Source of the DNA: Weeksellaceae bacterium
GTDB taxonomy: Bacteria > Bacteroidota > Bacteroidia > Flavobacteriales > Weeksellaceae
Assembly (NCBI GenBank): GCA_022013695.1
Contig: JAKLPS010000020.1
Coordinates: 1 to 64,000, forward strand
Direction of reading: 5' to 3'
DNA length: 64,000 bases
Positions 24,685-62,475 of the stretch are shown piece after piece. The stretch's first letter is position 1. Each line of letters opens with the position of its first letter. The position numbers and the translations under genes are program-made. A model generated the notes under the pieces. The model did no database searches and was not told the origin of the DNA. It worked only from the letters and a program-made list of their open reading frames with translations.

Positions 24685-24729
24685 CATCGCACACGCTCAC
24701 CAATTATTTTTTGAGGAGCTATTTCCCGC

Positions 24730-24790
24730 TTTCCGTTGCAATCTTTTTCTTTTTTTTGCAAAAAAAAGAAAAAGGATTTCCACTGCAATC
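24730..24790. repeat. Long perfect hairpin flanked by direct repeats
   Basis: A 32-base perfect palindrome spans 24743-24774: C, five T, C, eight T, G, and its mirror. It is bracketed by near-identical direct repeats, TTTCCGTTGCAATC at 24730-24743 and TTTCCACTGCAATC at 24777-24790. AGCTATTTCCCGC on the left and GGGGCTATGGG on the right extend the element to about 24705-24800. It resembles a REP- or MITE-like mobile hairpin between pheT and hemN. Confidence 0.75.
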
Positions 24791-24902
24791 GGGGCTATGG
24801 GTTTGGTCATTTTATAGAAGTTGAATCCATAATTATAGAAACTACCAATCAAAAGTCATTTCAAGTCGAGTGCAATCCCAACTCAATTTTTGTAACTTTG
24901 CA

Positions 24903-59279: not shown

Positions 59280-59741
59280 TTAATCTAATTTAAACTTAGT
59301 CGTCTTTTTAACTTCAGCCAAAACGATAGAACTGTGATATTGCCCGATGTGTGGGCTGTTTGAGATCACATTGACGGCAAAATGGTTATAGGAATTAATA
59401 TCTGTTGCCAGGATTTTTAGCTGATAGTCATATTCACCAGAAAGGCTGATGATTTCCTGCACTTCATCATATTTTGAGATATAATTTTCAAAATCTTTTA
59501 ATGTGGTTTGAGATTGCTCTTTGAGCCGCACGTTGCAATAGACCACGATGTTGATTCCGAGTTTTTCTCGGTTGAGGAGCGCAACATATTTCTCTACAAC
59601 GCCATTTTTTTCAAGATTTTTGATGCGCTCATAAGTCGGCGTGAAAGTAAGACCGATTTTTTCGGAGATTTCCTTCACAGAGAGCGTAGAATCGTCCTGA
59701 AGAAGGGAAAGTATCAATTTGTCTTTTTTGTCCAAACTCAT
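59280..59741 (-). CDS. Lrp/AsnC-family transcriptional regulator
   Basis: This 153-residue protein has an N-terminal HTH (LILSLLQDDSTLSVKEISEKIGLTFTPTYERI in sections, residues 9-40). A RAM effector domain (about 70-153) follows, with VVYCNVRLKEQSQ and VQEIISLSGEYDYQLKIL typical of the AsnC fold. It is convergent with argH and its start is divergent from pyrB with 254 bases between. It may sense an amino acid and control neighbouring genes, but no target is shown. An inverted repeat TTAAAATCA/TGATTTTAA (59247-59284) spans the argH-lrp junction and may be a weak two-way terminator. Confidence 0.92.
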   Translation of the reverse strand: MSLDKKDKLILSLLQDDSTLSVKEISEKIGLTFTPTYERIKNLEKNGVVEKYVALLNREKLGINIVVYCNVRLKEQSQTTLKDFENYISKYDEVQEIISLSGEYDYQLKILATDINSYNHFAVNVISNSPHIGQYHSSIVLAEVKKTTKFKLD

Positions 59742-59860: not shown

Positions 59861-59868
59861 TACATTTG
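59861..59868 (+). promoter_or_regulatory. -7 box of the pyrB leader promoter
   Basis: TACATTTG fits TAnnTTTG and ends 6 bases before the leader-peptide ATG at 59875. The transcript would start almost at that ATG. There is only a weak TTT, no TTG, at the -33 position. Confidence 0.5.
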
Positions 59869-59874
59869 CAGCTA

Positions 59875-59949
59875 ATGAATCTGGAACAGAATTTAGCGAC
59901 AAAAACATTTGGCAGTCTTGCCGACAACAACAATATTTTTTATATTTAA
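59875..59949 (+). CDS. Putative pyrB leader peptide (24 residues)
   Basis: A short open frame begins MNLEQNLATKTF and ends NNNIFYI before TAA at 59947-59949. The last eight codons pass through a U-rich tract (AATATTTTTTATATTT). The stop codon overlaps the start of a terminator hairpin, and pyrB follows 46 bases later. This is the geometry of the E. coli pyrBI leader, in which ribosome position relative to RNA polymerase at U-rich pauses decides termination. No homologue is known to me, so expression is inferred. Confidence 0.5.
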   Translation: MNLEQNLATKTFGSLADNNNIFYI

Positions 59950-59976
59950 CGAAGTCTTTTAGGCTTCGTTTTTTTT
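59948..59976 (+). terminator. Attenuator hairpin before pyrB
   Basis: AACGAAG (59948-59954) pairs with CTTCGTT (59964-59970). The stem can extend by T-G and C-G pairs around a TTTTA loop, giving nine pairs, followed by eight T. The next plus-strand gene upstream (argH) ended about 700 bases earlier, so this terminator most likely regulates pyrB. It ends 19 bases before the pyrB ATG. Confidence 0.75.
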
Positions 59977-59995
59977 ATTAAAAAAAATTTGAGAT

Positions 59996-60898
59996 ATGAT
60001 CAAACTTGCCCGCGTTTCTACAGAAAGTGTAGAGAAAATTTTAGAGGAAGCCCAGCAATTTGCAGACGGTAAAGTCAGCAAAATAAAAGGCGATGTTTTC
60101 GCTGCCAATTTGTTTTTTGAGAATAGCACCAGAACCAAAATTAGCTTCGAAGTGGCAGAGAAGAAACTCGGACTTCAAGTGATTGATTTCGAAGCCGATA
60201 AAAGCTCCATCACCAAGGGGGAAACACTCTCAGATACCATAAAAACCTTGGAAGCCATCGGCGTAGAGCTGGCCGTCATCAGGCATCCAGAAAAAAGATA
60301 TTACGATCAGCTTCAGGATGCGAAATTAAGTATCGTCAATGCAGGAGACGGCGTTGGAAGTCACCCAACACAGGCTATTTTGGATGCTTTGACGATCATT
60401 CAGGAATTTGGCAAGATCGAAGGTCTCAACATCGGAATCGTGGGCGATGTCAAGCATAGCCGTGTTGCGAACTCGGCTTCCGGACTTTTCCGGAGATTGG
60501 GCGCCAAAGTCTATTTCTCGGGACCGGAATTCTGGTTTGACGAAGGAATGCTGGTCAACGGAACGTATATGCAGTTCGATAGCCTCGTGAAAGGCGTCGA
60601 TGTTTTGATGTTATTAAGAATCCAACACGAGCGTCACGAGCGGCATTTCAACTTCAAACCCGAAGATTATCTCAAAAAATTCGGTTTGACGAAAGAAAGA
60701 GAAAAGAAAATGAAACCAGGCGCTATCATTATGCATCCAGCACCGATCAATAGAGGTGTTGAGATAGATTCCGATTTGGTAGAATGCGAAAGGTCAAGAA
60801 TCTTCAAACAAATGCAAAACGGCGTTTTTGCAAGAATGGCGATTCTTAAATTTGACCTTGAGAATAAAGGATTCGAGTTTGTCGACTCCCAAAATTAA
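59996..60898 (+). CDS. pyrB: Aspartate carbamoyltransferase catalytic subunit
   Basis: PyrB commits carbamoyl phosphate and aspartate to pyrimidines. The 300-residue protein has the carbamoyl-phosphate loop FFENSTRTKISFEVAEKKLG and the SSITKGETLSDTIKTLE loop. DGVGSHPTQAILDALTI (the HPTQ block), GDVKHSRVANSASGL and MHPAPINRGVEID are all present. No pyrI regulatory subunit or pyrR is adjacent. It is preceded by an attenuator and followed by a terminator at 60908, so it may be controlled as a single gene. Confidence 0.97.
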   Translation: MIKLARVSTESVEKILEEAQQFADGKVSKIKGDVFAANLFFENSTRTKISFEVAEKKLGLQVIDFEADKSSITKGETLSDTIKTLEAIGVELAVIRHPEKRYYDQLQDAKLSIVNAGDGVGSHPTQAILDALTIIQEFGKIEGLNIGIVGDVKHSRVANSASGLFRRLGAKVYFSGPEFWFDEGMLVNGTYMQFDSLVKGVDVLMLLRIQHERHERHFNFKPEDYLKKFGLTKEREKKMKPGAIIMHPAPINRGVEIDSDLVECERSRIFKQMQNGVFARMAILKFDLENKGFEFVDSQN

Positions 60899-60907
60899 AA
60901 ATTAATT

Positions 60908-60932
60908 CACGCTTTTCGGGCGTGTTTTTTTT
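60908..60932 (+). terminator. Terminator between pyrB and carA
   Basis: CACGC (60908-60912) pairs with GCGTG (60920-60924) around TTTTCGG, followed by eight T. It starts 10 bases past the pyrB stop. Confidence 0.8.
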
Positions 60933-61010: not shown

Positions 61011-62093
61011 ATGAAAAAGAAAGTAATATTAGAATCTGGAGAAGTATTCGATGGGATAGGATTTGGCGCAGAACAGGATACTGCCGGCGAAGTGGTTTTC
61101 AACACAGGGATGACGGGTTATCAGGAACTGATTTCTGACCCAAGCTATTGCGGACAAATCGTTTGTATGACCTATCCTTTGATCGGAAATTACGGAATCA
61201 ACAGAGACGATTACGAAAGCATTGAACCGGCAATCAAAGGTTTAATCGTCAAAGAATTGTGCGATTTGCCTTCCAATTTCCGAACTCAAATGACTTTGGA
61301 CGAGTTTTTCATCAAGAAAAATCTATCCGGAATTTCAGGCATTGACACCAGAAGATTGACCAGAATTCTTCGTAACAAAGGTGTTGTAAAAGGAAAAATA
61401 GTAAATGCTGAAACGGACGAGAATTCAGTTGTTGAAGAATTGAAAGTGATTAATTTCCCAACAAATCAAGTAGAACAGGTTTCCACAAAAACAGCTTACG
61501 CAAGTCCAGGAAGAGGCTTCAAAGTGGTGCTGGTAGATTTCGGTTCCAAATTAGGAATCATCCGTGAATTGTCTCAAAGAAATTGCGACATCATCGTGGT
61601 TTCTCAGGATACAACAGCAGAAGAGATTTTATTGATGGACCCAGACGGAATAATGCTTTCCAACGGTCCCGGCGACCCGGAAGATGTGATAGGTGCTTCA
61701 GAATTGATTAATGGTTTGCTTGGAAAAGTGCCGATTTTTGGAATTTGTTTGGGTCATCAATTGATTGGTCTGGCTTGTGGCGCAAAAACTTACAAACTGA
61801 AATTCGGTCACAGAGGTGGAAATCATCCGGTTTTGGATTTAGAAAAAAATAAAGTGGCGATCACTTCTCAGAATCACGGTTACGCAATTGATCAGGAATC
61901 TTTGAAAGACACAGACTTAATCGAAACACACATCGCCTTGAACGACAGAACCAACGAAGGTGTGAAACACAAAATCCATCCTTGTTTCTCAGTTCAATAT
62001 CACCCGGAAGCAAGTCCAGGTCCGGAAGATGCGAATTATTTGTTTGATGATTTTATTGAATTAATGTATCAATTTAAGAATGTAACAGTCTAA
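61011..62093 (+). CDS. carA: Carbamoyl-phosphate synthase small subunit
   Basis: CarA hydrolyses glutamine and passes ammonia to CarB. The 360-residue protein has the N-terminal VILESGEVFDGIGFGAE and FNTGMTGYQELISDPSYCGQIV (in parts). The class I amidotransferase triad includes the nucleophile Cys in FGICLGHQLIGLA, with the His and Glu in QYHPEASPGPED. Residues 1-140 are the CarA-specific domain. The product feeds both pyrB and ArgF' nearby. carB is separated from it by the four-helix-bundle gene. Confidence 0.97.
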   Translation: MKKKVILESGEVFDGIGFGAEQDTAGEVVFNTGMTGYQELISDPSYCGQIVCMTYPLIGNYGINRDDYESIEPAIKGLIVKELCDLPSNFRTQMTLDEFFIKKNLSGISGIDTRRLTRILRNKGVVKGKIVNAETDENSVVEELKVINFPTNQVEQVSTKTAYASPGRGFKVVLVDFGSKLGIIRELSQRNCDIIVVSQDTTAEEILLMDPDGIMLSNGPGDPEDVIGASELINGLLGKVPIFGICLGHQLIGLACGAKTYKLKFGHRGGNHPVLDLEKNKVAITSQNHGYAIDQESLKDTDLIETHIALNDRTNEGVKHKIHPCFSVQYHPEASPGPEDANYLFDDFIELMYQFKNVTV

Positions 62094-62112: not shown

Positions 62113-62475
62113 ATGATAAATTTTGAGAATAATCCTTTAATCACAAAAACAGTAAAATTTTCATTAGATATTATTGATTATTGTGAACTTTTGGAAGAGA
62201 AAAAGAAATACGTGATTGCCAAACAATTGTTACGTTCAGGAACTAGTATTGGTGCTAATTCATTTGAAGCACAAAATCCGCACAGCAAAAAAGATTTTAT
62301 TCATAAAATAAAAATTGCTGCGAAAGAACTTGAAGAAACGAAATATTGGCTGTATCTCTGTAAACATTCTCCTAATTATCCTTTTGATGAAAATTTGGAA
62401 TTACAGATAATAGAAATAGGAAAAATAATTTATAAAATATTAAGTACAAGTCTATCAAAAGAAAACGGCTCGTAA
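62113..62475 (+). CDS. Four-helix-bundle protein (23S rRNA-intervening-sequence family)
   Basis: This 120-residue protein belongs to the S23/four-helix-bundle group first noticed in ribosomal intervening sequences. Typical blocks are [61 protein letters not shown] and a C-terminal [13 protein letters not shown]. It is small, AT-rich and cytoplasmic; function unknown for the family. It lies 19 bases after carA and 43 bases before carB on the same strand, as if inserted into the carAB operon. The carB gap carries an 8-base tandem repeat. Confidence 0.87.

Follow-up and report, generated by a model that had tools for sequence, protein, structure and literature searches.

A Candidate Ribosome-Gated Attenuator with a Predicted Leaderless Start Upstream of pyrB in Weeksellaceae

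Organization of the pyrB Leader

In the window, by which we mean the whole stretch of 64,000 nucleotides analyzed, a compact leader precedes pyrB on the forward strand. Its parts, with the evidence for each, are as follows.

59861-59868, + strand: Bacteroidota sigma-A -7 box TACATTTG (TAnnTTTG type), by direct reading and family comparison
59873-59875, + strand: predicted transcription start, 0-2 nt 5' of the leader ATG, from the position of the box and the -12 to -5 rule
59875-59949, + strand: leader ORF of 24 codons, MNLEQNLATKTFGSLADNNNIFYI, plus TAA, by direct reading and frame conservation
59909-59924, + strand: pause-type hairpin UUGGCA-GUCU-UGCCGA, by folding here and of the same stretch across genera, and by covariation
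59934-59947, + strand: U-rich tract, proposed UTP-sensitive pause region, by direct reading and the U fraction across the family
59948-59976, + strand: intrinsic terminator (attenuator) with stem 59948-59970 and T-run 59969-59976, by scan, folding, and covariation
59996-60898, + strand: pyrB, Bacillota-like aspartate carbamoyltransferase catalytic subunit, by NCBIfam, identities, and tree

The leader ATG (59875-59877) lies 6 nt 3' of the box, its TAA occupies 59947-59949, and the T-run of the terminator has eight T ahead of the pyrB ATG at 59996. An earlier, sequence-only reading of this DNA described the same order of box, 6-nt gap, ATG, 24 codons, U-rich tract, terminator, and pyrB; all of these parts are where it placed them, and the arrangement is kept family-wide. 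It was also right about the gene downstream, which is above the cut-offs of both NCBIfam NF002032 and TIGR00670. It counted nine pairs in the terminator, where a terminator scan gives a stem of 10 pairs with a 3-nt loop, a matter of counting that leaves the terminator and its eight T in place. Missing from that reading is the pause-type hairpin, which sits 11 nt before the U-run. Against dinucleotide shuffles of the window locus, the terminator folds at -11.1 kcal/mol (z -5.5) and the pause-type hairpin at -6.6 kcal/mol (z -1.9), and, taken over its full 75 nt, the leader frame shows no folding advantage over the shuffles (z -0.6).

Within the window, neither type of signal is enriched. Terminator-like sites between 57000 and 63000 number 5 against an expected 5.4, and the string of box, six nucleotides, and ATG occurs three times against an expected 1.15, which is within chance (11 of 100 shuffles reach three). 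The layout stands above chance because of comparison, as it recurs at 23 of 23 pyrB loci of the genus and in 64 leaders from 25 genera.

Distribution of the Leader

The layout is present in 64 of 67 pyrB upstream regions and in 25 of the 26 pyrB-bearing genera of the family sample. The 67 regions comprise 23 from the genus, 7 that came with the family search, 20 picked across genera from the matches listed, and 17 from further genomes, these last coming from a search of 25 chosen genomes of which 8 had no match. We take the genus of the window to be Epilithonimonas, and the family Weeksellaceae, from its named relatives, among which are Kaistella, Chryseobacterium, Cloacibacterium, Halpernia, and Cruoricaptor. 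The three regions without such a leader (L224-L226, outside the 64) all belong to genus g16, despite having a relative of the window's pyrB; the PyrB of this genus is the most distant, at 52-54% identity. One further leader, L211, is unusual in lying more than 100 nt further from pyrB than is typical and in having its frame stop 19 nt before the terminator core. In genome G033, pyrB is present twice, at 74% and 65% identity to the window's gene, and each copy has a leader of its own (L026 and L052).

A pyrB of the window's type occurs in 211 of 246 family genomes at a cut-off of 1e-50. Of the 35 genomes lacking one at that cut-off, eight were searched again at 1e-25, still with no match. Native Bacteroidia PyrB, in a small search of proteins, scored 1e-39 or better against the window query. 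Family genomes without pyrB may be pyrimidine auxotrophs.

A covariance model built from 30 leaders (R1) matches all 27 named pyrB loci titled as flavobacteria, several of which are genomes already counted, and none of the other 53 named pyrB loci, titled as Bacillota except for one labelled Pseudomonas. In the family sample, 214 of 246 genomes match at E up to 1; subtracting 14 matches weaker than 1e-3 leaves 200 of 246 at 1e-3 or better among the matches listed. In the order sample 51 of 296 genomes match, four of them outside the family and not at pyrB, and in the phylum sample 4 of 247 match, all family members. Across the order and phylum samples, a set of genomes that does not include E. 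coli, model matches to pyrB leaders are thus confined to the family. Four weak matches from outside the family (L171-L174) have a terminator and no pyrB after it in the DNA fetched, and were rejected. In the window's own genome, a sequence-based search, which differing leaders of other pyr genes would escape, returned nothing besides pyrB better than E 4.9. The literature searched, which leaves out most subscription journals, contains no report of a pyrB attenuator in Bacteroidota among the matches listed.

Conservation of Hairpins and Reading Frame

The best conserved letters of the leader are those of the box, start codon, U tract, and terminator. Mean U fraction over the 25 genera is 0.61 at 4-17 nt before the terminator core versus 0.23-0.36 further upstream. 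Upstream of this tract, a fixed 36-nt stretch (54 to 18 nt before the core; one leader per genus) folds better than dinucleotide shuffles, with a mean z of -1.56 over 25 genera and a combined p of 5e-9 when genera are taken as independent. The upstream hairpin is weak in single genera, with a shuffle fraction below 0.1 in only 14 of 25. In most genera the stretch folds to a simple hairpin, with very different stems, and there is no neat hairpin in L212 and L222. The first UUU follows the stem end at a median of 11 nt (range 0-19; 5 nt or less in L036, L214, and L217), a position set in part by design through the fixed folding window.

The sequence-only reading proposed that covariation of the hairpin and codon-like substitution in the leader peptide be looked for, and the two fared differently. 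In a model-fitted alignment of 36 rows (A4, at a stricter threshold than A3, which had four rows away from pyrB), 95.9% of structure cells are paired versus 27.7-54.6% for slid-partner controls, and 8 of 13 pairs change on both sides. Both hairpins covary: the terminator helix is 99.1% paired, and in the upstream helix 88.4% of cells are paired and three of four modelled pairs change on both sides. An alignment fitted to a structure leans toward that structure; the folding test is independent of the alignment. Codon-like substitution was not seen. Within the genus, codon variants include 3 synonymous and 21 nonsynonymous changes where chance gives ~20% synonymous; an excess of synonymous change was looked for at the genus level and not found. 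Judged from these substitutions, the leader peptide is under no purifying selection.

The frame itself is conserved alongside the hairpin. Its start is set by the position of the box and was not picked for openness. When each genus is represented by a single leader, 24 of the 25 leaders have no stop in frame 0 between codon 2 and a point 12 nt short of the terminator core; the other two frames are open in 6 and 5. From shuffled sequence, 0.31 is expected per leader, and the probability of 24 or more open frames is 2.7e-12 when measured against dinucleotide shuffles with genera counted as independent. In the full set of 64, the three frames are open in 63, 8, and 33 leaders, the last count being swollen by 23 near-alike leaders from one genus. 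The exact motif ATATTT is found in the U tract of 17 of the 25 genus representatives, and 3 of these have it in a different reading frame. Occurrence of the motif in other frames and variability of the peptide indicate that what is kept is an open frame and a U-rich tract, not a peptide, as would suit a mechanism that depends on translation taking place and not on its product.

Where the frame ends is also constrained. Of the 64 leaders, 57 have their stop 1-19 nt short of the terminator core and 7 have a frame that runs through the core. All frames but that of L211, which stops at -19, are open to 12 nt or less from the core or past it. This refines the pyrBI comparison of the sequence-only reading: the 7 leaders run through as in E. 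coli pyrBI, and the 57 resemble E. coli rph-pyrE more closely.

PyrR, PyrI, and the Origin of pyrB

PyrR, which the sequence-only reading had not seen, is above the NF003549 cut-off in 0 of 246 family genomes. Matches far below threshold in 223 of the 246, the best at 37 bits against a cut-off of 138, are presumably other phosphoribosyltransferases. The same model is above cut-off in 6 of 14 control genomes and in 170 of 292 genomes of the order, with no family member among the matches listed. Across the class, 25 of 30 pyrB loci have a PyrR-like frame, identified from its motif, on their upstream side; the 30 are the best-scoring of 114 genomes with a match and not a random draw. Coordinates from the PyrR model show that pyrR adjoins pyrB in two genomes of the sister family f3 (G247 and G262). 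None of 236 family genomes yielded PyrI, and feedback through a PyrI subunit therefore seems unavailable in the family.

The PyrB of the window is 56-61% identical to PyrB of Bacillota versus 38-43% to the PyrR-linked PyrB of other Bacteroidia, and 32-36% identical to four others (L178-L181). An unrooted tree unites 32 rows of leader-bearing family PyrB, with some genomes represented twice, at 99/100 and sets 26 PyrB native to Bacteroidia apart at 100/100. PyrB of the family is not one clade in this tree, with g16 falling outside and long branches warned of; in an AU test a single clade that includes g16 is not rejected (p 0.58). On these relationships, the simplest account is that a pyrR-pyrB pair was replaced by a laterally acquired pyrB, and the leader attenuator appears to stand in for the PyrR used by related bacteria.

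Prediction of a Leaderless Start

The gap between box and ATG is 6 nt in 59 of 64 leaders, 5 in four, and 7 in one, and the letters in between vary. Constancy of this kind is what one would expect of an AUG that has to stand at the 5' end. According to an excerpt of PMC9723704, the TAnnTTTG box of F. psychrophilum occupies -12 to -5, a rule that would place the transcription start 0-2 nt before the leader AUG. As all 64 leaders have their start codon 5-7 nt past the box, the leader mRNA is predicted to be leaderless, and the suggestion of a leaderless start in the sequence-only reading is borne out as a prediction. Such a start would be a minority case in Bacteroidota. The leaderless share is put at 5.5% for F. 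psychrophilum in an excerpt of PMC9723704; for B. thetaiotaomicron, an excerpt of PMC7366714 has ~3.7% of 5' UTRs shorter than 10 nt, and for F. johnsoniae, one of PMC6847099 has 87% of predicted leaders longer than 10 nt.

Proposed Mechanism and Alternatives

With parts whose order and spacing are conserved, hairpins that covary, a frame that is kept open, and PyrR and PyrI absent at the cut-offs used, the element is quite probably an attenuator of the pyrBI/pyrE type, which relies on coupling of transcription and translation. The RNA would begin 0-2 nt ahead of the leader AUG, and a ribosome would load at this 5' end without a Shine-Dalgarno sequence. A hairpin made behind RNA polymerase would act as a pause signal, and the polymerase would enter the U-rich tract ~11 nt later. 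At low UTP the polymerase would dwell in the tract, a slowing that we infer by analogy with the E. coli systems, and the leading ribosome would then catch up to the end of the frame and cover the 5' arm of the terminator. The terminator hairpin would be blocked and pyrB transcribed. When UTP is plentiful, the polymerase would outrun the ribosome, leading to termination.

Occlusion by the ribosome is the natural reading because no shared antiterminator was seen: when the terminator is folded with its 3' arm removed, 2.4 of the 10 nt in its 5' arm pair on average, with no shared pattern and up to 8 of 10 in two genera. According to an excerpt of PMC4824070, moving a stop in E. coli from 28 to 5 bp before a terminator reduces termination from ~90% to under 10%. 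The same excerpt places the E. coli pyrBI terminator inside its leader gene and gives a stop-terminator distance of more than 20 bp for amino-acid attenuators. In L211, with its distant stop, occlusion would be partial.

The mechanism needs a ribosome close behind the polymerase, making the leader a natural reporter for coupling in Bacteroidota. The gene pyrB has its own terminator (60908-60924, + strand), 9 nt after its stop codon and before carA at 61011, and pyrB may therefore be transcribed alone. Tight coupling would tend to block a terminator so placed, which is a point against the mechanism. In B. subtilis, which is reported to be mostly uncoupled, stops and terminators lying this close were taken to indicate uncoupling (PMC7858274, in excerpt). 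No report on coupling in Weeksellaceae was found in the literature searched.

A leader of the same anatomy could report another signal, such as translation rate or supply of aminoacyl-tRNA, rather than UTP. The position of the ribosome would be the proximate switch either way, and the last codons of many leaders are for Ile, Phe, Tyr, or Asn. We consider this unlikely, as no single-codon run is common to the genera, the motif of the U tract occurs also in other reading frames, the gene downstream is a pyrimidine gene, and a ribosome stalled before the terminator would lower expression, not raise it. A leader peptide and a terminator would equally suit an amino-acid attenuator of the trp or his type with alternative antiterminator folds, and an excerpt of PMC9723704 gives clues to such elements in amino-acid operons of F. 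psychrophilum. Lack of a shared antiterminator pairing or run of regulatory codons, a stop nearer to the terminator than in that class, and the wrong type of gene make it highly improbable. PyrR-dependent attenuation has next to no chance of being correct: PyrR is common in the order and a PyrR-like frame precedes most of the class pyrB loci surveyed, but the family has no PyrR above cut-off and the leader no match at the gathering score in Rfam, which includes a PyrR family. In this last respect, the failure of the sequence-only reading to see a PyrR-binding pattern is upheld.

The remaining alternatives dispense with the ribosome as switch. A plain promoter-proximal terminator that yields a small RNA or damps expression, with the frame a by-product or the gene for a functional small protein, agrees with box, start codon, U tract, and terminator being the most conserved letters. 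It is very unlikely given that the frame is open across genera, its stop is tied to the terminator, its amino acids are not conserved, and the hairpin is spaced from the U tract. Likewise, conservation and covariation of the upstream hairpin are what a protein or ligand of unknown identity that binds there to control termination would require; that stem and loop letters differ widely between genera, and that binding gives no reason for a conserved frame, leave this with little probability. Returning to UTP-sensed attenuation, we lean slightly toward a history in which a ribosome-gated attenuator of this kind arose independently in the family with a Bacillota-like pyrB, from a leaderless AUG, and displaced the PyrR control that sister families still have. 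If so, coupling would be tight enough for a leaderless ribosome to reach the polymerase within ~70 nt.

Comparison with Known Attenuators

UTP attenuation of pyrBI and pyrE is textbook knowledge in enterobacteria, and in Bacillus PyrR-based attenuation controls pyr genes in response to pyrimidines. The pyrBI leader of E. coli (pyrL; K-12 MG1655 sequence) likewise has a leader frame, a hairpin, ~10 nt, a U-run, and an intrinsic terminator just before pyrB; by eye, its stem is GCGUCU/AGACGC followed after 10 nt by UUUUU. Its frame passes through the terminator, as do those of 7 of 64 flavobacterial leaders. Unlike the window's leader, it has 44 codons, a GGAGG before the AUG, a stop 44 nt beyond the start of the terminator, and pyrI after pyrB, whereas the former is predicted to be leaderless and has 24 codons, a stop at the terminator, no PyrI found, and a Bacillota-like pyrB. 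In E. coli rph-pyrE, too, the stop of a frame must be near the terminator for regulation (PMC2784333, in excerpt), but what is translated there is a full gene, rph, and not a short leader serving this purpose alone. The pyr genes under PyrR control in Bacillus and in other Bacteroidota also use attenuation that responds to pyrimidines and need PyrR, which was not found in the family. Amino-acid attenuators share a leader peptide and terminator with the flavobacterial element, which lacks their shared run of regulatory codons and their antiterminator and has its stop much nearer to the terminator.

The best reading of these likenesses is that the flavobacterial element would be an independently evolved counterpart of the E. 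coli pyrBI and pyrE attenuators, and it is probably not descended from the enterobacterial element. By analogy the anatomy would work alike, and the predicted leaderless start, the type of pyrB, and its history set the flavobacterial element apart. If true, control resembling that of pyrBI and pyrE in another phylum, and there without PyrR, would suggest two separate origins of one solution, and that a gene can exchange one regulatory principle for another.

Other Features of the Window

Immediately 5' of the pyrB promoter is a divergent gene for an Lrp/AsnC-type regulator (59280-59741, - strand). Stop-to-terminator distances surveyed across the window gave 6 terminators among 48 ORFs at 20-75 nt, too small a number to conclude from; the score threshold used missed the terminator of pyrB itself. 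After carA, there is a 120-aa ORF (62113-62475, + strand), the product of which we take to resemble four-helix-bundle proteins. Elsewhere, the window has a Flavo-1 RNA (RF01705) at 24718-24800 on the - strand, with a score of 81.8 bits.
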